Below, piece by piece: positions 15,267-36,001 of a stretch of 64,000 nt of DNA. A program made the position numbers and the translations under genes. The stretch is from Blastococcus sp. MG754426 (GTDB lineage Bacteria; Actinomycetota; Actinomycetes; Mycobacteriales; Geodermatophilaceae), in assembly GCF_021699055.1 (NCBI RefSeq), contig NZ_SSXC01000001.1, forward strand, positions 124,001-188,000, written 5' to 3'. The stretch's first letter is position 1; the number at the start of each line of letters is the position of its first letter. Below the pieces are notes generated by a model that worked only from the letters and a program-made list of their open reading frames with translations, searched no databases and was not told where the DNA came from.

Positions 15267-16946
15267 TCAGAAGCGGGCCGGTTCGGTGTAGCCGCCCCAC
15301 TCGGCGCGGAGTGCGTCGCAGATCTCGCCCAGGGATGCCTCGGCGCGCACGGCGTCGAGCATCGCCGGGACCATGTTGGCCTCGGTCCGCGCGACCTCGA
15401 CGAGGCGTGCGACCGCCGCGCGGGCGGCGTCGTCGTCCCGCTGCTGCCGGCGCACGGCGAGCTCCGCCTTCTGCTCGACCTCCACCTCGTGGCTCACGCG
15501 GAGGATGTCCAGCTTGTCGTGCGCGTCCACCGAGCCGACCAGCGTGTTCACGCCGACGACCTTCTTGTCGCCCTTCTCCAGCGCCCGCTGGTAGGTGAAC
15601 GCCGCCTCGGCGATCTCGCCGGTGAACCAGCCGTCCTCGATCCCGCGCAGGATGCCGCTGGTCATCGTCCCGTCGGTGCCCATGTCCTTGATGCGGGTGA
15701 AGATCTCCTCCGCCTGGCGCTCGAGCTCGTCGGTGAGCGCCTCGACGTACCAGGAGCCGCCGAGCGGGTCGGCGACGTTCATGACCCCGGTCTCCTCGGC
15801 GATGACCTGCTGGGTGCGCAGCGCGATCTGCGCGGCCTTGGCGCTGGGCAGCGCCAGTACCTCGTCCAGGGCGTTGGTGTGCAGCGACTGGGTGCCGCCG
15901 AGGACCGCGGCCAGCGCCTCCACCGCCGTCCGGGTGATGTTGTTGTCGGGCTGCTGGGCGGTGAGGCTGACGCCGGCGGTCTGGGTGTGGAAGCGCAGCT
16001 GCTGCGCCTTCTCGGTCGTGGCGCCGTAGACGTCGCGGAGCCAGCGGGCCCAGATGCGGCGCGCGGCGCGGAACTTGGCGATCTCCTCGAAGAAGTCGAT
16101 GTGCGCGTCGAAGAAGAACGACAGCCCGGGGGCGAACTGCTCGACGTCCAGGCCGCGGGAGAGCCCGAGCTCCACGTAGGCGAAGCCGTCGGCCAGCGTG
16201 TACGCGAGCTCCTGCGCGGCCGTCGAGCCGGCCTCACGGATGTGGTAGCCGGAGACGCTGATCGGCTTGTACGCCGGGATGTTCTCGGCGCAGTACTCCA
16301 TGAGGTCGCCGATCAGGCGCAGGTGCGGCTCCGGCGGGAAGAGCCACTCCTTCTGCGCGATGTACTCCTTGAAGATGTCGGTCTGCAGCGTGCCGTTGAG
16401 CCGGCCGGTGTCGGCGCCCTGGCGCTCGGCGGCGACCAGGTACATGCAGAACACCGGGACGGCCGGGCCGCTGATCGTCATCGACGTCGTGGTGGCCTCG
16501 AGGTCGATGCCGTCGAAGAGCTCGTCCATGTCGACGGCGGTGTCCACGGCCACGCCGCAGTGCCCGACCTCCCCGAGGCTGCGCGGGTCGTCGGAGTCGC
16601 GGCCCATGAGCGTGGGCATGTCGAAGGCGACGCTCAGCCCGCCGCCGCCCTCGGCCAGGATCATCTTGTAGCGCTCGTTGGTCTGCCGGGCGTTGCCGAA
16701 GCCGGCGAACTGCCGGATCGTCCAGGCCCGGCCGCGGTAGCCGGTGGCGTGCAGACCCCGGGTGAACGGGAACTCGCCGGGGTAGCCGATCCGGTCGAAC
16801 CCCTCGACGGCGCCCTCGTCGGCCGGGCCGTACACCGGGTCGACCTCCACCCCCGACAGCGTGGTGAAGTCCGCGTCGCGGACCCGCCCGGCGGCCAGCG
16901 CCGCGTCGTACCGCTGCTGCCACCGCTGCCGGGCGTCGTCGCTCAT
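15267..16946 (-). CDS. icmA: Isobutyryl-CoA mutase large subunit (IcmA)
   Basis: A 559-residue acyl-CoA mutase large subunit with the TIM-barrel substrate domain ([39 protein letters not shown]) but no C-terminal B12-binding domain. Two residues define specificity: methylmalonyl-CoA mutase has Tyr89 and Arg207, whereas isobutyryl-CoA mutase has Phe80 and Gln198. Here residue 80 is Phe (TIRQF) and residue 198 is Gln (YIAQK), matching the ICM pattern even in numbering. It should interconvert isobutyryl- and n-butyryl-CoA, linking valine catabolism to butyrate metabolism. Function needs a separate B12-binding small subunit (IcmB), not found in the window. A MarR gene lies just upstream; MeaB, a mutase chaperone, is 2 kb further. 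Confidence 0.9.
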
Positions 16947-16985: not shown

Positions 16986-17501
16986 TCACGGCGAGTCGCC
17001 GGCGACGTCGCCCGCACCCAGCCGCACGCGGCGCAGCGTCGTGAACAGCGCCTCCTGCTCGTCCTCCGCCAGGTCCGCCAGGCCGAAGTCGATCGCGGTC
17101 AGCGCCCGGGTCCCCTCGTCCACGACGGCACGGCCGCGCTCGGTGATCGCGGCCAGGACGCCGCGGCCGTCGGCCGGGTTCGGGCGGCGGTCGACGTACC
17201 CGGCGGCGGCCAGCCGGTCGATGGCGTTCGTGACGCTCGTCGGGTGCACCATGAGCCGGCTGCCGATCACCTTCAGCGGCAGCTCCCCCGACCGGCTGAA
17301 GGTGAGCAGCACCAGCACCTCGTAGCGGGCGAAGGTCAGCTCCAGCGGGCGCAGCACCCCGTCGAAGCGGGCCAGCAGGATCTGCTGCACGCGGAAGACC
17401 GACGTCGCCGCCCGCATCGCCGACGACGGGCCGAAGTGCGTCTCCCACTTCTCCCCGGCGCGCTCGATCGGGTCGAACGGCAGCCCCAGCGGTCGGACCA
17501 T
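16986..17501 (-). CDS. MarR family transcriptional regulator
   Basis: A 171-residue winged-helix regulator. After a long N-terminal helix (SSAMRAATSVFRVQQILLARFDGVL) comes the MarR DNA-binding core: ARYEVLVLLTFSRSGELPLKVIG, recognition helix HPTSVTNAIDRLAAAG, and wing with DGRG. The start is taken at ATG 17501 (MVRPLGLPFDPIERAGEKW), since the upstream in-frame extension is Arg/Pro-rich antisense-like sequence. It is directly upstream of icmA on the same strand, and the only gap between them holds a good palindrome. It probably represses icmA and is relieved by an acyl-CoA or related ligand, by analogy with other MarR proteins; the ligand is unknown. Confidence 0.88.
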   Translation of the reverse strand: MVRPLGLPFDPIERAGEKWETHFGPSSAMRAATSVFRVQQILLARFDGVLRPLELTFARYEVLVLLTFSRSGELPLKVIGSRLMVHPTSVTNAIDRLAAAGYVDRRPNPADGRGVLAAITERGRAVVDEGTRALTAIDFGLADLAEDEQEALFTTLRRVRLGAGDVAGDSP

Positions 17502-17559
17502 GCGCGGCACGGTACCTGCGCGCCCCGGACGCCCCGGATCACCGCGGGACGCACGCGGG

Positions 17560-19029
17560 TCAGCGCAGCGGCGGCCGGAGCGGGGGGACGTGCCGCACGC
17601 CGAACACCTCGCGCAGGGCGACGCGCGCGGCCTGGTCGCCGCAGGCGCCGTGGACGGCCGGACCGGGCGGGGTCGCCGAGGACGCGAGGTACACCCCCGG
17701 GACCGGCGTCTTGTAGGTGTTCCAGCGCGGGACCGGCCGGGCGAGCATCTGCCGGAGGGTGGTCTGCCCGTTGGAGATGTCACCGCCCAGGTAGGTGGGG
17801 TTCCACTGCTCCATCTGGACGGCGCTCTTCGTGTGGCGGTCGACGACCGTGTCGCGGAAGCCGGGTGCGAACCGCTCGACCTGCCGCTCGATCGCCTCGG
17901 TCATGTCGACGTCGGAGCCGTGCGGGACGTGCACGTAGGCCCAGAAGATGTGCCCGCCGTCCGGCGCCCGGCTGGGGTCGGGCACCGTCGGCTGCACGGC
18001 GAGCACGTAGGGCCGGTCGGTGAGGCGGCCCTCGTTGGGCGCCCGCTCCCCCTCGATCGTCTCCTCCAGGGTGCCGGCGACGTGGACCGTGCCGGCACGG
18101 CGGACGTCGGCGTTCGCCCAGGGCACCGGCTCGGAGAGGATCCAGTCGATCTTGAAGACGCCGGCGCCGTGCCGGTAGCGCCGGACCCAGCGGCGGTAGC
18201 CCTCGTGCACCCGGTCGCCGGCCATCGCCACGAACGCGTCGGGCGTGGTGTCGAGCAGGACCGCGGGCACCCCCTCGAACTCCCGCAGATCGGTGACCAG
18301 GTGCCCGGTGACCACCTCGCCCCCCTGCTCCTCGAGGGCGGTCACCATGGCGTCGGCAAGCTGCTGCGACCCGCCCTCGACCAGCGGCCACCCGACGTGG
18401 TGGGACAGCATCGCGAGCAGCATGCCCAGCGCCGAGGTCAGCGGCCGGCGGAGGTCGAGCATCCCGTGGGCCGCGGCACCACCCAGCAGCGCGCGCCCCT
18501 CGGCGGTGTCGAAGTACCGGTGCGCCAGCCAGCGGACGTCGGGCAGGCCGGTGAGCCCGAACCGGGCGATCTGCACGGGGCTGCGCGTCGGCAGGCTGCG
18601 CAGCCGGCTGGTGAGGAAGAAGTCGACGATGTCGCCGCCGTGCTCCACGAGCGGCCTGAACAGCCGGCGGTAGGCGTCGGCGTCCGCGCCCAGCCCGGCC
18701 GCGGTTCGCTCCAGGGAGCGGTGGGAGACCGCCGCGCGGCCGCCGTCCAGCGGGTGCGCGAAGCTGACGTCCGGGTGGACGAGCCGGACCCCGCGCGACG
18801 GCAGGTCGAACTCGCGGAAGAAGGGTGCCGCGGCGGCCAGCGGCTGCACCGTCGAGCAGACGTCGTGGTGGAACCCGGCGCGGATGAGCTCCTCGGTGCG
18901 CATCCCGCCGCCGGGTCGCCCGGCCGCCTCGACCACCTGCACCCGCAGGCCCGCGGCGGCGAGCCGGAGTGCGGCGGCCAGCCCGTTGGGGCCCGCGCCG
19001 ACGACGACGGCGTCCGGCTTGCCGTTCAC
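17560..19029 (-). CDS. NAD(P)/FAD-dependent oxidoreductase, phytoene-desaturase-like
   Basis: A 489-residue flavoprotein of the phytoene dehydrogenase/amine oxidase superfamily (COG1233 type). It opens with a Rossmann FAD site, DAVVVGAGPNGLAAALRLAAAG, then EAAGRPGGGMRTEE. The C-terminal FAD block is GVYLASSATPPGPAVHGACGDQAA. The GTG at 19029 places the Rossmann motif at residue ~6, which is normal. The upstream frame is low-complexity Arg/Gly and rejected. Proteins of this type are widespread in actinobacteria with unknown substrates; no carotenoid genes are nearby, so a carotenoid role should not be assumed. Confidence 0.85.
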   Translation of the reverse strand: MNGKPDAVVVGAGPNGLAAALRLAAAGLRVQVVEAAGRPGGGMRTEELIRAGFHHDVCSTVQPLAAAAPFFREFDLPSRGVRLVHPDVSFAHPLDGGRAAVSHRSLERTAAGLGADADAYRRLFRPLVEHGGDIVDFFLTSRLRSLPTRSPVQIARFGLTGLPDVRWLAHRYFDTAEGRALLGGAAAHGMLDLRRPLTSALGMLLAMLSHHVGWPLVEGGSQQLADAMVTALEEQGGEVVTGHLVTDLREFEGVPAVLLDTTPDAFVAMAGDRVHEGYRRWVRRYRHGAGVFKIDWILSEPVPWANADVRRAGTVHVAGTLEETIEGERAPNEGRLTDRPYVLAVQPTVPDPSRAPDGGHIFWAYVHVPHGSDVDMTEAIERQVERFAPGFRDTVVDRHTKSAVQMEQWNPTYLGGDISNGQTTLRQMLARPVPRWNTYKTPVPGVYLASSATPPGPAVHGACGDQAARVALREVFGVRHVPPLRPPLR

Positions 19030-22004: not shown

Positions 22005-22022
22005 GGTTACCCATCGGTAACC
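22005..22022. promoter_or_regulatory. Operator-like palindrome before ccr (GGTTACC-N4-GGTAACC)
   Basis: GGTTACCCATCGGTAACC is a perfect 7-bp inverted repeat around 4 nt. It overlaps a -10-like TAACCT (22018-22023). A near copy (14 of 18 identical) lies in the ecm promoter at 35920-35937. TTAC/GTAA palindromes of this sort are used by TetR/GntR-type acyl-CoA regulators; the cognate regulator is not evident in the window. Confidence 0.65.
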
Positions 22023-22086
22023 TCTCCGCACCCGCACCGCCCTCCGAGCCCGGCCGACCACGGCCACCGATGACCCGGGAGAACGC

Positions 22087-23418
22087 GTGAACGAGATCAG
22101 GGACGCCATCCTCGCCGACCAGCTGGACGCCCTCGGCGGCCTGGCCGTGCCGGAGTCCTACCGCGCCGTGCTGGTCCGCAAGGACGAGCAGGACATGTTC
22201 GTGGGCCTGCCCACCAAGGAGAAGGACCCGCGCAAGTCCCTCCACGTCGAGGAGGTCCCGACGCCGGAGCTCGGCCCGGGCGAGGCGATCGTGGCCGTCA
22301 TGGCGTCGTCGGTGAACTACAACACCGTCTGGACGTCGATCTTCGAACCGGTCTCCACCTTCGGCTTCCTCGAGCGCTACGGCCGCGTCTCCGAGCTCAC
22401 CAAGCGGCACGACCTGCCCTACCACGTGGTGGGCTCGGACCTGGCCGGCGTCGTCCTGCGCGTGGGCCCCGGGGTCAACAAGTGGAAGCCGGGCGACGAG
22501 GTCGTCGCGCACTGCCTCTCGGTGGAGCTCGAGGACCCGGCCGGGCACGACGACACGATGATGGACCCGCAGCAGCGCATCTGGGGCTTCGAGACCAACT
22601 TCGGCGGCCTCGCGGAGCTGGCGCTGGTCAAGAGCAACCAGCTCATGCCCAAGCCCGCGCACCTGTCGTGGGAGGAGGCGGCGAGCCCCGGGCTGGTCAA
22701 CTCGACCGCCTACCGCCAGCTGGTGAGCAAGAACGGCGCCAACATGAAGCAGGGCGACGTCGTGCTCATCTGGGGCGCCTCGGGCGGCCTGGGCTCCTAC
22801 GCCACCCAGATGGCGCTCAACGGCGGCGCCATCCCGGTGTGCGTGGTGAGCAGCCCGGAGAAGGCCGAGATCGTCCGCCGGATGGGCGCCGAGCTGGTCA
22901 TCGACCGCTCCGCCGAGGGCTACCAGTTCTGGAAGGACGAGGACACCCAGGACCCGAAGGAGTGGCAGCGCTTCGGGAAGAAGATCCGCGAGCTGACCGG
23001 TGGCGAGGACGTCGACATCGTCTTCGAGCACCCCGGCCGGGAGACCTTCGGGGCCAGCGTCTACGTGGCCAAGAAGGGCGGCACGATCATCACCTGCGCG
23101 TCCACCACCGGTTACATGCACGAGTACGACAACCGGTACCTCTGGATGAACCTCAAGAAGATCCTGAGCTCGCACTTCGCCAACTACAAGGAGGCGTGGG
23201 AGGCCAACCGGCTCATCGACAAGGGCCTCATCCACCCGACCCTGTCGAAGGTCTACCCGATGGAGCAGGTCGGCCAGGCCGCCCTCGACGTCCACCGCAA
23301 CGCCCACCAGGGCAAGGTCGGCGTCCTGACCCTCGCCCCCGAGGAGGGGCTGGGCGTCAAGGACGCCGAGAAGCGCGCGAAGCACATCGAGGCGATCAAC
23401 CGCTTCCGCGGCATCTGA
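22087..23418 (+). CDS. ccr: Crotonyl-CoA carboxylase/reductase
   Basis: A 443-residue zinc-independent medium-chain dehydrogenase that reductively carboxylates crotonyl-CoA to ethylmalonyl-CoA with NADPH and CO2, the signature step of the ethylmalonyl-CoA pathway. The NADPH site is LIWGASGGLGSYATQMALNGG. The four CO2-pocket residues defined in Kitasatospora setae CCR (Asn81, Phe170, Glu171, His365) are found here as Asn79 (NYN), Phe168-Glu169 (GFETNFGG) and His363 (SSHFANY), so it should carboxylate rather than only reduce. GTG start with GGGAG 5 nt upstream. A perfect hairpin follows the stop. Confidence 0.97.
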   Translation: MNEIRDAILADQLDALGGLAVPESYRAVLVRKDEQDMFVGLPTKEKDPRKSLHVEEVPTPELGPGEAIVAVMASSVNYNTVWTSIFEPVSTFGFLERYGRVSELTKRHDLPYHVVGSDLAGVVLRVGPGVNKWKPGDEVVAHCLSVELEDPAGHDDTMMDPQQRIWGFETNFGGLAELALVKSNQLMPKPAHLSWEEAASPGLVNSTAYRQLVSKNGANMKQGDVVLIWGASGGLGSYATQMALNGGAIPVCVVSSPEKAEIVRRMGAELVIDRSAEGYQFWKDEDTQDPKEWQRFGKKIRELTGGEDVDIVFEHPGRETFGASVYVAKKGGTIITCASTTGYMHEYDNRYLWMNLKKILSSHFANYKEAWEANRLIDKGLIHPTLSKVYPMEQVGQAALDVHRNAHQGKVGVLTLAPEEGLGVKDAEKRAKHIEAINRFRGI

Positions 23419-26426: not shown

Positions 26427-28208
26427 TCAGCGACCGGCGTAGTCCCGGAACCCGCGGCCGGTCTTGCGGCCGAGGTAGCCGGCCGTCACCAGGTGCTCCA
26501 GCAGCGGGGCCGGCGCGAAGCCCGGCTCCCGGAACTCCGTGTAGAGCTCCTTCTCGATCGCGAGCGAGACGTCGAGACCCACGACGTCCAGCAGCTCGAA
26601 GGGCCCCATCGGGTAGCCGCAGCCGACCTTCATCGCGGCGTCGATGTCGTCGGCGGTGGCGTAGTGCGCCTCCAGCATCTTCACCGCGTCGTTCAGGTAG
26701 GGGAAGAGCAGCGCGTTGACGATGAAGCCGGCGCGGTCGGTGCAGGAGACGGCGTGCTTGCCCAGCTGCGCCGAGACGGCGTGGATGGTGGCGGCGACGT
26801 CGGGTGCGGTGGAGATCGTGGAGACGACCTCGACGAGCTTCATCACCTGCGCGGGGTTGAAGAAGTGCATGCCCACGACGTCGGCCGGGCGGCCGCTGGC
26901 CTTCGCGCACTCGATGACCGGGAGGCTCGAGGTGGTGGTGGCCAGCACCGCGCCCGGCTTGGCGATCTCGCCGAGGTTCGCGAACAGGGCCTCCTTGACC
27001 GGCAGCGACTCGACGACGGCCTCGATGACCAGGTCGCGGTCGGCGAGGTCGTCCAGCGACGTCGTCCCCGAGACCCGGCCCAGGATCTCCGCCTTCGCCG
27101 CCTCCTCGAGGCGACCGCGCACGACCTGCTTGTCCAGCGACTTGCCGAGCGCCGTGGTGACGGCCTCCACCTTCTCGGGCGAGCGCGCGACGAACCGCAC
27201 GTCGTACCCGCCCTTGGCGACGACCTCGATGATCCCCGTGGCCATCGTGCCCGAGCCGACGACGCCGACGGTCCGCACGTCGCGGGCACCGGCCGCGGCA
27301 CCACCCGGGGTGGGCGTCCGGTCGTCCGGGACGACCTCGGCCGAGCCGGGCTCGGCGTAGGTGTAGAAGCCGCGGCCTGACTTCCGGCCCAGCAGGCCGG
27401 CGGTCATCATCTGCTTGATCACCGGGCTGGGGGCGTGCAGCCGGTTCCGCGACTGCTTGTACATCGTGTCGAGGATCTCGTAGGCGGTGTCGATGCCGAT
27501 GAGGTCCATGAGCGACAGCGGGCCCATGGGCAGGCCGCAGCCCAGGCGCATGGCGGCGTCGATGTCCTCGCGCGAGGCGTAGCGGTTCTCGTACATCGAC
27601 ACCGCGTGGTTGAGGTAGCCGAACAGCAGCGCGTTGGCGATGAACCCGGCCTTGTCGCCGATCGTCACGTCCACCTTGCCCAGGCGGTCGGCGAGCGCCT
27701 CGACGGTCTCGACGACCTCGGGCTCGGTGACGACGGTGCGGACCACCTCGACGAGCTTCATGACCGGCGCCGGGTTGAAGAAGTGCATCCCGATGACCTT
27801 GCTCGGGCGGCCGGTGACCACCGAGAGCTCGGTGACCGAGAGGCTGGAGGTGTTGGTCGCCAGGATCGTGTCCGGCGGGCAGATCTTGTCCAGCTTGGCG
27901 AAGACGTCGGCCTTGAGCTCCATCCGCTCCGGGATGGCCTCGATCACCAGCTCCGCGTCGGCCAGGTCCTCCAGCGAGGTGGAGAAGCGGATCCGCTCGA
28001 AGATGGCGTCCCGGTCGGCGGGGTCGAGCTTGCCGCGGGCGACCGCCCGGTCGGTGGACTGCTCGACGTGGCCGCGGCCGCGGGCCAGCGCCTCGTCACC
28101 GGTCTCGACGGCGGTGACCGACAGCCCCGCCCGCGCGAGCACCTCCGTGATGCCGGCACCCATGGTGCCCAGCCCCACGACGCCGACCTCGTTCAGTTCC
28201 CTGGCCAC
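26427..28208 (-). CDS. Tandem (double) 3-hydroxyacyl-CoA dehydrogenase
   Basis: A 593-residue protein made of two consecutive full-length 3-hydroxybutyryl-CoA dehydrogenase-like units (~residues 1-285 and 310-593). Each has an NAD site (VGVVGLGTMGAGI and VGVVGSGTMATGI), a catalytic His motif GMHFFNPA, KLVEVV, and the C-terminal ALLF..YLN and GYLGRKTGRGF-type blocks. Family Ser-His-Glu-Asn residues appear in both; the Asn of TNTSS is Thr in unit 2 (TTTSS). It would reduce acetoacetyl-CoA to 3-hydroxybutyryl-CoA for the ccr branch, or act in beta-oxidation. The GTG at 28208 is chosen for its GGGAG 8 nt upstream; ATG 28223 is the alternative. Confidence 0.9.
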   Translation of the reverse strand: MARELNEVGVVGLGTMGAGITEVLARAGLSVTAVETGDEALARGRGHVEQSTDRAVARGKLDPADRDAIFERIRFSTSLEDLADAELVIEAIPERMELKADVFAKLDKICPPDTILATNTSSLSVTELSVVTGRPSKVIGMHFFNPAPVMKLVEVVRTVVTEPEVVETVEALADRLGKVDVTIGDKAGFIANALLFGYLNHAVSMYENRYASREDIDAAMRLGCGLPMGPLSLMDLIGIDTAYEILDTMYKQSRNRLHAPSPVIKQMMTAGLLGRKSGRGFYTYAEPGSAEVVPDDRTPTPGGAAAGARDVRTVGVVGSGTMATGIIEVVAKGGYDVRFVARSPEKVEAVTTALGKSLDKQVVRGRLEEAAKAEILGRVSGTTSLDDLADRDLVIEAVVESLPVKEALFANLGEIAKPGAVLATTTSSLPVIECAKASGRPADVVGMHFFNPAQVMKLVEVVSTISTAPDVAATIHAVSAQLGKHAVSCTDRAGFIVNALLFPYLNDAVKMLEAHYATADDIDAAMKVGCGYPMGPFELLDVVGLDVSLAIEKELYTEFREPGFAPAPLLEHLVTAGYLGRKTGRGFRDYAGR

Positions 28209-28292
28209 GTTGCCGTCTCCCATCGCCGGTGATGGCGGGAAGTCTCTCATCACGGCGGACGGCGGTCCCCGGCCCCTCTGCGGGCGGCCCGC

Positions 28293-32854: not shown

Positions 32855-33625
32855 TCAGTCGGGCCAGACGGGGCGCCGCTTCTCCAGGAAGGCGGACATC
32901 CCCTCGACCGCGCCGGGGAGCCGGCTCGCCGCCGCCATGACCTCGATCGCGGTGGTGTAGGCGTCCCGCTCGGGCCGGTCCAGCTGGGCGTACATCGTCT
33001 GCTTGCCCCAGGCCTTGCTGGCCCGCGAGCCCCGGGTGGCCCGCGCGACGAGGTCGTCGACGGCGGCGTCGAGCTCGGCGTCGGGCACCACCCGGTTGAC
33101 CAACCCCCAGTCCAGCGCCGTCGCCGCGTCGATGACGTCACCGGTCAGCGCCAGCTCCATCGCCCGCTTGCGGCCGACGTTGCGGGCGATCGCCACCATC
33201 GGCGTGTGGCAGAACCAGCCGCCCTTGCCGCCGGGCGCGGCGAACCCCGCGGACTCCGCCGCCACCGCCAGGTCGCAGGACGCCACCAGCTGGCAGCCGG
33301 CGGCGGTGGCGAGGGCGTGCACACGCGCCACGACGACCTGCGGCACGTCCTGCACGGTCTGCATCAGCTCGGTGCACAGCTGCAGCAGGCTGCGCACCTC
33401 GGGCAGCGAGGAGCCGGCGACGTCGGCGAAGTCGTGGCCGGCGCTGAACACCGGCCCCTCCGCACCCAGCACGATCGCCGCGGCGTCGCTCTCCCCCGCC
33501 TCGGTGACGGCGGCGAGCAGCTGCCCCAGGTGCTCGCGGGAGAGCGCGTTGCGCTTCGCCGCGCGCGTCATCGTGATGCGGACGACGTCACCGTCGCGCT
33601 CGACCCGGGGTGCACCGTCAGCCAT
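32855..33625 (-). CDS. Enoyl-CoA hydratase/isomerase family protein
   Basis: A 256-residue crotonase-fold protein. Oxyanion-hole segments are AAKRNALS and GPVFSAGHDFADV at the N-terminus and LATAAGCQLVASCDLAVAAES in the middle. The next segment, FAAPGGKGGWFCHTPMVAI, lacks the Glu usually found at the second catalytic position of hydratases (it reads GGWF), more like the ECHDC3-type subgroup of uncertain reaction. It might hydrate crotonyl-CoA-type substrates of the adjacent ecm/ccr pathway, but with the catalytic Glu in doubt, a hydratase role should be treated cautiously. Upstream (33626-33882) no gene is seen. Confidence 0.83.
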   Translation of the reverse strand: MADGAPRVERDGDVVRITMTRAAKRNALSREHLGQLLAAVTEAGESDAAAIVLGAEGPVFSAGHDFADVAGSSLPEVRSLLQLCTELMQTVQDVPQVVVARVHALATAAGCQLVASCDLAVAAESAGFAAPGGKGGWFCHTPMVAIARNVGRKRAMELALTGDVIDAATALDWGLVNRVVPDAELDAAVDDLVARATRGSRASKAWGKQTMYAQLDRPERDAYTTAIEVMAAASRLPGAVEGMSAFLEKRRPVWPD

Positions 33626-33882: not shown

Positions 33883-35901
33883 TCAGACCGGGGCGGGAAC
33901 CCGGTCCTGGAGGCCGTTGGCCTCGCGGACGACGTCGACCACCTGGCCCATGATGTCGTTCAGCCCGAAGTCCTTGGGCGTGAACACCCGGGCGACCCCC
34001 TGCTCGCGCAGCCGGCGGGCGTCGCTGTCGGGGATGATCCCGCCGACGACCACGGGGACGTCGTCCAGACCGGCCTCCCTGAGCCCCTGCAGGACCGCCG
34101 GCACCACCTGCAGGTGGGAACCGGAGAGCACCGACAGGCCGACCACGTGCACGTCCTCCTCGACGGCGGCGCTCACGATCTGCGAGGGCGTCAGCCGGAT
34201 GCCCTGGTAGATGACCTCGAAGCCGGCGTCACGGGCCCGCACCGCGATCTGCTCGGCGCCGTTGGAGTGGCCGTCGAGCCCGGGCTTGCCGACCAGGAAC
34301 CGCAGCCGGCCGCCGAGCTCCTCGCCGGTGGCGCTGACCCGCTCGCGGACCGCGGTGAGGGTCTCGTCGGCCTCCCCGCCACCGGCGGCGGCGGCGACGC
34401 CGGTGGGCGCCCGGTACTCGCCGAACACCTCCCGCAGCACGCCGGCCCACTCCCCCGTCGTCACCCCCGCGCGAGCGCAGTCGAGCGTGGCGGGCATCAG
34501 GTTCACATCGCCGGCCGCCGCCTCGCGGAGCGCGTCGAGGGCCTTGCCGGCCGCCTCCTGGTCCCGGCCCGCACGCCACCTCCGGACGGCCTCCTGGGCG
34601 GCGGCCTCGACGGCCGGGTCGACGACCATGATCGCGGTGTCGAGATCCGCGGTGAGCGGGTTGGGCTCGGTGGTGTCGAACCTGTTGACCCCGACGACGA
34701 CGTCCTCGCCGCTCTCCATCCGGCGCCGGCGCTCGGCCAGCGAGGCGACCAGCTCGCCCTTCATGTAGCCCGACTCGACCGCGGCCACCGCGCCGCCCAT
34801 CTCCTGCACCCGGGCGATCTCGGCCCGGGCGCCCTCGACGAGCTCGGCGACCTTCTTCTCCACCACGACCGAGCCGGTGAACAGGTCGTCGTACTCGAGC
34901 AGGTCGGTCTCGTAGGCGAGCACCTGCTGGAGGCGCAGCGACCACTGCTGGTCCCAGGGCCGCGGCAGGCCCAGGGCCTCGTTCCACGCCGGCAGCTGCA
35001 CGGCGCGGGCGCGGGCGTCCTTGGACAGGGTGACCGCCAGCATCTCCAGCACGATGCGCTGGACGTTGTTCTCCGGCTGCGCCTCGGTGAGGCCGAGGGA
35101 GTTGACCTGCACGCCGTAGCGGAAGCGGCGGTGCTTGGGGTCCTCGACGCCGTAGCGCTCCTTCGTCAGCTCGTCCCAGAGCTGGGTGAAGGCCCGCATC
35201 TTGCACATCTCCTCGACGAACCGGACCCCGGCGTTGACGAAGAAGGAGATGCGCGCGACCACCTCGCCGAAGCGCTCCTGCGGCACCTGCCCGGAATCGC
35301 GGACCGAGTCCAGGACCGCGATCGCGGTGCTCATCGCGTAGGCGATCTCCTGCACCGGTGTGGCACCGGCCTCCTGCAGGTGGTAGCTGCAGATGTTGAT
35401 CGGGTTCCACTTCGGCATCGCCGTCACCGTGTAGGCGACCATGTCGGTGATCAGCCGCATCGAGGGCGCCGGCGGGAAGACGTACGTCCCCCGCGACAGG
35501 TACTCCTTGATGATGTCGTTCTGCGTCGTCCCGGCGAGCTTGCTGACGTCGTGGCCGTGCTCCTCGGCGACCGCCTGGTAGAGCGCCAGCAGCCACATCG
35601 CCGTGGCGTTGATGGTCATGGACGTGTTCATCTCGTCCAGCGGGATGCCGTCGAAGAGCGCGCGCATGTCACCGATGTGGGACACCGGCACGCCGACCTT
35701 CCCGACCTCCCCGCGGGCGAGCTCGTCGTCGGGGTCGTAGCCGGTCTGCGTGGGCAGGTCGAAGGCGACCGAGAGACCGGTCTGCCCCTTCGCCAGGTTG
35801 CGGCGGTAGAGGGCGTTGGACTCGGCCGGCGAGGAGTGGCCGGCGTAGGTGCGCATGACCCAGGGGCGGTCACGCTCCTCCGGCTTCTGCGGGAACGGCA
35901 T
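33883..35901 (-). CDS. ecm: Ethylmalonyl-CoA mutase (MeaA/Ecm)
   Basis: A 672-residue single-chain B12-dependent mutase. The substrate barrel opens RPWVMRTYAGHSSPAESNALY and contains LSVAFDLPTQTGYD and NICSYHLQEAGATP; the C-terminal B12-binding domain has Asp543-x-His545-x-x-Gly (LDGHSNG), SVLSGSH and VVVGGIIP. Unlike methylmalonyl-CoA mutase, the large and small domains are fused at ~670 residues, the length typical of MeaA-type ethylmalonyl-CoA mutases. It isomerises ethylmalonyl-CoA to methylsuccinyl-CoA right after CCR and epimerase. ATG 35901 is chosen because the family starts with the PEERDRPWVMRTYAGHS region; 110 upstream codons are rejected. Confidence 0.95.
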   Translation of the reverse strand: MPFPQKPEERDRPWVMRTYAGHSSPAESNALYRRNLAKGQTGLSVAFDLPTQTGYDPDDELARGEVGKVGVPVSHIGDMRALFDGIPLDEMNTSMTINATAMWLLALYQAVAEEHGHDVSKLAGTTQNDIIKEYLSRGTYVFPPAPSMRLITDMVAYTVTAMPKWNPINICSYHLQEAGATPVQEIAYAMSTAIAVLDSVRDSGQVPQERFGEVVARISFFVNAGVRFVEEMCKMRAFTQLWDELTKERYGVEDPKHRRFRYGVQVNSLGLTEAQPENNVQRIVLEMLAVTLSKDARARAVQLPAWNEALGLPRPWDQQWSLRLQQVLAYETDLLEYDDLFTGSVVVEKKVAELVEGARAEIARVQEMGGAVAAVESGYMKGELVASLAERRRRMESGEDVVVGVNRFDTTEPNPLTADLDTAIMVVDPAVEAAAQEAVRRWRAGRDQEAAGKALDALREAAAGDVNLMPATLDCARAGVTTGEWAGVLREVFGEYRAPTGVAAAAGGGEADETLTAVRERVSATGEELGGRLRFLVGKPGLDGHSNGAEQIAVRARDAGFEVIYQGIRLTPSQIVSAAVEEDVHVVGLSVLSGSHLQVVPAVLQGLREAGLDDVPVVVGGIIPDSDARRLREQGVARVFTPKDFGLNDIMGQVVDVVREANGLQDRVPAPV

Positions 35902-35909
35902 ACCGGCGG

Positions 35910-35937
35910 AGTGTAGGGCGGTTACCCGCCGGTAGCA
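35910..35937 (-). promoter_or_regulatory. ecm promoter with operator-like motif shared with ccr
   Basis: TACACT (35910-35915, minus strand) lies 8 nt before the ecm ATG as a -10. GGTTACCCGCCGGTAGCA (35920-35937, plus strand) covers the spacer and -35 area and matches the ccr upstream palindrome at 14 of 18 positions. Within it GGCGG-TTAC-CCGCC (35917-35930) is also palindromic. Confidence 0.6.
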
Positions 35938-35951
35938 GCCCCGCCCGGCGA

Positions 35952-35967
35952 TGTGTGCGGTGGCACA
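35952..35967. promoter_or_regulatory. Palindrome GTGTGC-GGTG-GCACAC in the ecm/DUF gene divergent gap
   Basis: A perfect 6-bp inverted repeat lies between the ecm promoter and the divergent gene at 36002. It may be an operator for the latter. No further support. Confidence 0.3.
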
Positions 35968-36001
35968 CTCGCTGACGGGTGCACCCGGGAGGAGGAGGGC
36001 C

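Follow-up and report, generated by a model that had tools for sequence, protein, structure and literature searches.

Acyl-CoA responsive regulators in actinobacteria

Regulons controlled by acyl-CoA responsive TetR proteins are already known, and the related mycobacterial regulon is that of FdmR. In brief, FdmR (Rv0238) is described, in the parts of two papers accessible to us, as a TetR-family protein that responds to long-chain acyl-CoA and represses mycobacterial fatty acid degradation (PMC12403877), with fadE5 among its targets (PMC9262360); the papers cite Dong et al. 2021. FasR (Rv3208) of Mycobacterium tuberculosis has been co-crystallised with a 25-mer DNA, the sequence of which is given in the accessible text (PMC7382501).

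In the limited open-access literature we found neither a regulon of this kind that takes in the ethylmalonyl-CoA pathway, nor FasR as regulator of that pathway, nor a description of what switches the pathway on in actinobacteria. Neither FasR nor FdmR is mentioned among the ethylmalonyl-CoA literature matches listed.

Sites upstream of ccr and ecm

The window, the whole 64-kb stretch of Blastococcus DNA analysed here, contains ccr and ecm, for which an earlier note had proposed a shared operator-like motif. We found GGTTACCCATCGGTAACC before ccr and GGTTACCCGCCGGTAGCA before ecm exactly where the note had placed them, and the two sites are identical at 14 of 18 positions as it claimed. It had also said that each overlaps a likely promoter, and this agrees with TAACCT at 22018-22023 for ccr and with an ecm site that spans the spacer/-35 side of TACACT at 35910-35915 on the minus strand. 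No other exact copy of the full motif exists in the window (the note had said this of the intergenic DNA), and no regulator gene adjoins either site; a MarR-family ORF, with no link to the motif, is about 4 kb distant from that of ccr. The features are as follows.

16986..17783, minus strand: ORF of a MarR-family regulator (Pfam PF01047)
22005..22022, no strand: operator-like palindrome before ccr, core GTTACCCATCGGTAAC (sequence, genome-wide rarity, conservation, footprint alignment)
22018..22023, plus strand: putative -10 box TAACCT overlapping the ccr operator (sequence; predicted promoter)
22087..23418, plus strand: ccr, crotonyl-CoA carboxylase/reductase (NCBIfam TIGR01751, 607.7 bits, cut-off 378.55)
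26427..28253, minus strand: tandem-domain 3-hydroxybutyryl-CoA dehydrogenase, a 608-aa ORF with two units (NCBIfam, Pfam)
32855..33625, minus strand: enoyl-CoA hydratase-family gene downstream of ecm (NCBIfam family matches)
33883..35901, minus strand: ecm, cobalamin acyl-CoA mutase with MM_CoA_mutase and B12-binding domains (Pfam, NCBIfam domain models)
35910..35915, minus strand: putative -10 box TACACT of ecm (sequence and relatives; predicted promoter)
35920..35937, no strand: operator-like palindrome before ecm, core GTTACCCGCCGGTAGC (sequence; present in four compared relatives)

The ccr gene starts with GTG at 22087, 64 bp downstream of its palindrome. We corrected the start codon of ecm to the ATG at 35901 (minus strand), which puts the palindrome 18 bp upstream. 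The ecm product matches the NCBIfam domain models above cut-off and falls below the cut-off of the full-length methylmalonyl-CoA mutase equivalog model; the gene name Ecm rests on context. The enoyl-CoA hydratase-family gene at 32855..33625 is possibly co-transcribed with ecm.

A better notation for the motif is GYTACYNNNNRGTARC, in which the four central bases are free. Allowing up to three mismatches, the window holds 4 matches where 2.26 are expected, a count attained by 17 of 100 shuffles. These window-only statistics are modest; the genome-wide scan is the decisive test.

A second inverted repeat, GTGTGCGGTGGCACAC, lies at 35953-35968 between ecm and a divergent small ORF. It is kept in four aligned relatives, with one change in one of them, and is possibly the site of another regulator.

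Conservation of the sites

The ccr site was sought in 79 named ccr loci with upstream DNA, grouped by record title. Within 200 bp upstream of the gene the motif is present exactly in 47 of the 79 loci and with at most one mismatch in 70, against a background of 45 exact matches and 131 with at most one mismatch among 7610 windows. At the latter threshold the site is found in 43/45 loci of Geodermatophilaceae (one mislabelled Bacillus included), 7/7 of Pseudonocardia and 9/10 of Aeromicrobium. It is found in none of five Streptomyces loci and is missing in two loci of Geodermatophilaceae (L041 and L059) and, at one mismatch or less, in L073 and L079.

We aligned the window with 31 upstream regions of Geodermatophilaceae, from which L031, L041, L051 and L053 had been excluded beforehand. 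The half-sites belong to the best conserved blocks of this alignment, while the four bases between them vary. The right half is overlapped by a TAACNT box, and the T in the TAACNT register recurs. Conserved half-sites, a variable centre and an overlapping TAACNT box are what one would expect of an operator placed on a -10 box.

Upstream of ecm the half-sites are kept in the four compared relatives, while the centres differ. The TACACT box just downstream of the site is kept in three of the four and reads TAGACT in the fourth. The comparison with relatives, proposed in the earlier note as a check, thus came out in favour of both sites, with the central bases free.

The same motif precedes fadE5. 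In all seven genomes examined from six other families, the best FadE5 homologue has at least one exact site, and in six of the seven a second site, exact or with one mismatch, lies 23-27 bp away. Genomes G030 and G055 have the motif in their fadE5 promoters. No exact site was found at the second FadE5-type copies of these two genomes or at three more distant homologues.

Taken together the operator has the form GYTACY-N4-RGTARC with a free centre, a TetR-type inverted repeat in the promoter region, and in the set of loci compared it stands 34-186 bp before the start of the recognised targets. Judged by sequence, both window sites are conserved control sites.

Genome-wide distribution and target genes

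In the 4.71-Mb genome GTTACCN4GGTAAC occurs exactly at two places, before ccr and before fadAB (contig 112), and with one mismatch at two more, the ecm site and a site before an aldehyde dehydrogenase-like gene. Allowing up to two mismatches raises the number of places to 49, compared with 6 when the motif is reversed. Of the relaxed palindrome YTACYNNNNRGTAR the genome holds 14 sites, 12 of them before fatty acid or CoA genes; its reversed pattern yields 3.

The targets are ccr, ecm, fadAB, the gene of ETF-beta (etfB), an EtfD-like reductase, an MceG/MlaF-type ATPase, a FadD-type ligase, an acyl-CoA dehydrogenase pair (fadE), FabG1, a FadE5-like dehydrogenase with two sites 23 bp apart, and a CitE/HpcH-type lyase (mcl1-like). 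At the contig-112 site a FadA-type thiolase lies downstream, followed by a multifunctional protein that we read as FadB-like from its translation. The EtfD-like target is a membrane Fe-S reductase for which Pfam gives 4Fe-4S domains only, and which we take to be EtfD-like. The family matches of the other targets are computed, and the labels MceG, FadE5 and Mcl1 are our own assignments. Two of the 14 sites have no lipid link: L134, at an ABC ATPase, and L136, at a glycosyltransferase/Dabb pair.

The genome scan proposed in the earlier note therefore shows matches enriched before acyl-CoA genes, the mcl1-like lyase among them, and the operator-like motif shared by ccr and ecm is real and extends to 12 fatty acid/acyl-CoA sites. 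The note's single regulator for both sites is consistent with the shared motif, with a changed scope: it would control a genome-wide degradation regulon and not act as a switch specific to the ethylmalonyl-CoA pathway. Of that pathway, ccr, ecm and the mcl1-like gene carry the motif in this genome. The 3-hydroxybutyryl-CoA dehydrogenase gene carries it in four relatives, and there is no copy before its counterpart in the window (26427-28253).

Sites in Blastococcus and in the order

All 74 distinct sites of YTACYNNNNRGTARC in six Blastococcus genomes were counted. Orthologues (at least 70% identity) of 11 lipid genes of our genome follow within 250 bp at 51 of these sites. Another 9 stand before 3-hydroxybutyryl-CoA dehydrogenase (4), an acyl-CoA dehydrogenase after purE (4; two of these loci were assigned by reading, their matches to our own genes being distant, 28-29%) and acetyl-CoA synthetase (1), so that 60 of 74 sites precede fatty acid/acyl-CoA genes. 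For the reversed motif the figure is 0 of 30 loci, representing 27 distinct places out of 31 listed, in eight Blastococcus genomes that overlap with, and are not equal to, the six; one locus precedes another TetR gene. The remaining 14 of the 74 sites comprise eleven with no recognised neighbour among the queries, two before pyruvate kinase and one before a glycosyltransferase-like gene.

The two pyruvate kinase sites (L241 and L314) come from two Blastococcus genomes and stand directly before the gene; they would connect the glycolytic exit with a fatty acid signal. In four Blastococcus genomes (L256, L260, L309 and L331) the motif is flanked by an endonuclease IV-like gene on one side and, on the other, by a divergent gene for a secreted protein, both assigned by reading. 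There is no obvious link between these loci and fatty acids.

Across the order, 32 of 40 genomes (ours included) have one to three perfect sites each, and the reversed control has none except in one genome. Within the family we examined one perfect-site locus per genome, 22 of the 37 such sites; 12 stand before CCR and 8 before FadA, and of the remaining two, one retains a remnant of FadA and the other lacks it. In the other families, 11 of 28 palindrome loci precede CCR, FadA, EtfB, EtfD, FadE5 or FabG1, and 17 of the 28 have no recognised target among the queries used.

At L105 (G020) and L122 (G017) the perfect palindrome adjoins the same sugar-binding-protein gene as at our own fadA locus. 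At L105 fadA was not found, and at L122 the match to it covers only a short stretch. The palindrome may be an orphaned or re-used operator there.

The candidate regulator

At the search threshold TetR_N has 30 matches in our genome. The orthologue of M. tuberculosis FasR is among these, at C25:1213-1854 (6o6p_A, E 8e-57); 98 of 199 residues are identical (49%), and so is the recognition helix, VSKPVLYQHF. The FasR tunnel residues are partly kept: L98 is L in our protein, L106 is replaced by M and F123 by Y. Close orthologues of FasR are present in 58 of 60 genomes.

FasR genes are themselves preceded by motif-like copies. In 29 of 30 Geodermatophilaceae loci the called start is preceded, at 27-42 bp, by a copy that departs from the 16-mer at three positions or fewer; within this family the mismatch count alone barely separates FasR genes from other TetR genes. 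Among 27 further FasR loci, five from the same family and 22 from other families, 13 have a copy of the 14-mer with at most one mismatch and five of these are exact, against 16 and 1, respectively, among 191 background windows. The best copy at our own FasR gene has three mismatches to the 16-mer. In the strict matrix the two copies there score 0.4 and -4.0, the best one thus near zero, so the promoter link rests on position and on the other families and not on the matrix. No TetR gene of our genome, the FasR orthologue with its two mismatches included, has a copy with at most one mismatch in the 320 bp upstream; the comparison within this genome thus decides nothing. The earlier note had suggested a search for a TetR gene preceded by the motif, and this leads to the FasR orthologue, with the reservation that the copy in our own genome is degenerate.

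In the 25-mer of the FasR co-crystal, as given in the accessible text of that study, the core TACYN4RGTA occurs twice, each time with one mismatch. Scored with a matrix of 71 sites, the 25-mer is equalled or surpassed by only 58 of 20000 shuffles. There is no clean co-occurrence of FasR with motif abundance over 18 genomes: G043 has sites and no detectable close FasR orthologue (in a 79% complete assembly), and G058 has FasR and no enrichment of the motif. We regard the FasR orthologue as the best candidate for the regulator, and it probably autoregulates.

Proposed mechanism

We think it probable that one and the same TetR-family dimer has its operators before both ccr and ecm; it would repress a degradation regulon and be released by acyl-CoA, and the FasR orthologue is the likeliest protein. 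The motif, its distribution, its conservation and its occurrence before FasR orthologues are observations; that the protein binds, which ligand it takes up and whether it represses are inferences. In brief, the dimer would read the half-sites GYTAC/GTARC, leaving the four central bases free, and on the palindrome it would block RNA polymerase. As the site lies on the likely promoter at both ccr and ecm, repression is the most likely mode. Long-chain acyl-CoA would bind the dimer and release it from the DNA. The import ATPase, acyl-CoA ligase, acyl-CoA dehydrogenases, ETF with its membrane reductase, and thiolase/FadB would then rise together. Ccr, Ecm and the mcl1-like lyase would be co-induced, allowing growth on the acetyl-CoA from beta-oxidation. 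One fatty-acid-sensing protein would thus probably turn on fat breakdown together with the use of its end product.

We further speculate, with doubts that slightly outweigh our confidence, that an ancestral FasR-type acyl-CoA sensor was the master switch throughout the Mycobacteriales, using one palindrome to govern import, beta-oxidation, ETF and the ethylmalonyl-CoA pathway. Its paralogue FdmR would have taken over the degradation genes in mycobacteria, where FasR would have kept synthesis. The model predicts a shared DNA specificity of FasR and FdmR. A single operator that unites fat breakdown, the electron-transfer chain and acetyl-CoA assimilation is a testable rule with a named candidate regulator, and the operator could be used to steer acyl-CoA supply in polyketide or lipid producers.

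Alternative explanations

That the motif is a chance resemblance or a non-regulatory repeat has a negligible chance of being true. Within the window alone the count at up to three mismatches is unremarkable, but this reading is already contradicted by the counts at the Blastococcus sites (60/74 against 0/30 for the reversed motif) and at the ccr loci (70/79 against 131/7610 windows), and half-sites are conserved where the centre varies. Control of both sites by the MarR-family regulator of the window would draw on its MarR domain (PF01047) and its position next to a mutase gene. We consider this highly improbable and have rejected the ORF at 16986-17783 as the regulator, as no motif copy lies near it and the targets are scattered over the genome and over the order. 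The adjoining mutase gene (15267-16946) matches the N-terminal mutase domain model and not the B12-binding C-terminal model. The operator and regulator may also be as proposed and the mode different, namely activation, or both modes depending on site position. FasR of M. tuberculosis activates fas-acpS according to the accessible text (PMC7382501), and at EtfD the distance from site to start is 183-186 bp, long for repression of a gene-proximal promoter. At the other recognised targets of that set of loci, however, the site is 34-145 bp before the start codon, and in the window it overlaps the likely -10 box of ccr and covers the spacer/-35 side of the ecm promoter, so we hold this to be unlikely.

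The regulon may be real and its regulator another TetR protein: L168 (C189) upstream of fadE5, L173 (C185), or an unrecognised counterpart of FdmR. We judge this fairly unlikely, with L168 as a serious local rival. L168 was attractive at first because it is kept near fadE5 within the genus; its position is two genes ahead of fadE5, it occurs at the upstream edge of the fadE5 loci in 5 of 7 relatives examined, and it is present in 15/15 same-family genomes searched. We downgraded it, since close homologues were found only within the family and the regulon reaches further: in 17 genomes of other families its best match has at most 48% identity (G039) and is mostly far weaker, several of these genomes have the motif and its targets without a close L168, and the 400 bp preceding the L168 HTH contain no copy within two mismatches. 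We rejected L173, whose gene diverges from that of a thiolase: none of 30 orthologous upstream regions of L173-type genes has a copy with at most one mismatch, and the intergenic region holds a different palindrome. This one consists of CGGTACC repeats (L173 1830-1860, C185). The L173 TetR has homologues with at least 69% identity in most same-family genomes searched and may be another lipid regulator. As for a counterpart of FdmR, genome G030 has the motif before fadE5 and an FdmR-like TetR gene about 7 kb away, and is rich in acyl-CoA dehydrogenase matches. We take this gene to be FdmR from its position and from gene order. Its protein shares an SKPxLY recognition helix with our FasR orthologue, which is also its best match among our 30 TetR proteins (26% over 201 residues, E 1.5e-16; the next has 2e-9). 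FdmR is the reported regulator of mycobacterial fadE5, in the available part of that paper (PMC9262360), and the motif stands at fadE5 there too, which implies that another TetR protein can serve such sites. For our own genome a FasR/FdmR-type protein would remain the best reading.

Comparison with known systems

CcrR of Methylobacterium extorquens, likened here by title alone, is a TetR protein acting on an ethylmalonyl-CoA pathway gene, but it is alphaproteobacterial and is named as activator of one pathway gene (PMC10370305). RamB/PccR of the ScfR family resemble the proposed system in that CoA-ester signals are tied to acetyl-CoA/propionyl-CoA assimilation. They belong to another protein family, however, and their motif is two near-identical boxes with an 18-bp spacer (PMC10370305, accessible parts). 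For fasO of Corynebacterium, the published text passages available to us did not contain the letters of the motif.

FasR of M. tuberculosis is closer. It is orthologous to our candidate, has the identical recognition helix, was crystallised with DNA that contains near-copies of the motif, and senses acyl-CoA; yet in the accessible text it is an activator of the fas-acpS synthesis genes and not a regulator of degradation or of the ethylmalonyl-CoA pathway (PMC7382501). With FdmR, as known here from citing descriptions, the system would share the TetR type, the response to long-chain acyl-CoA and the fadE5 target. The motif stands before fadE5 in our own genome, in relatives and in 7/7 further genomes, and is the same at fadE5 of G030 and G055. 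The two differ in that none of our 30 TetR genes is a close FdmR orthologue, and in that our putative regulon includes ccr, ecm and the mcl1-like gene.
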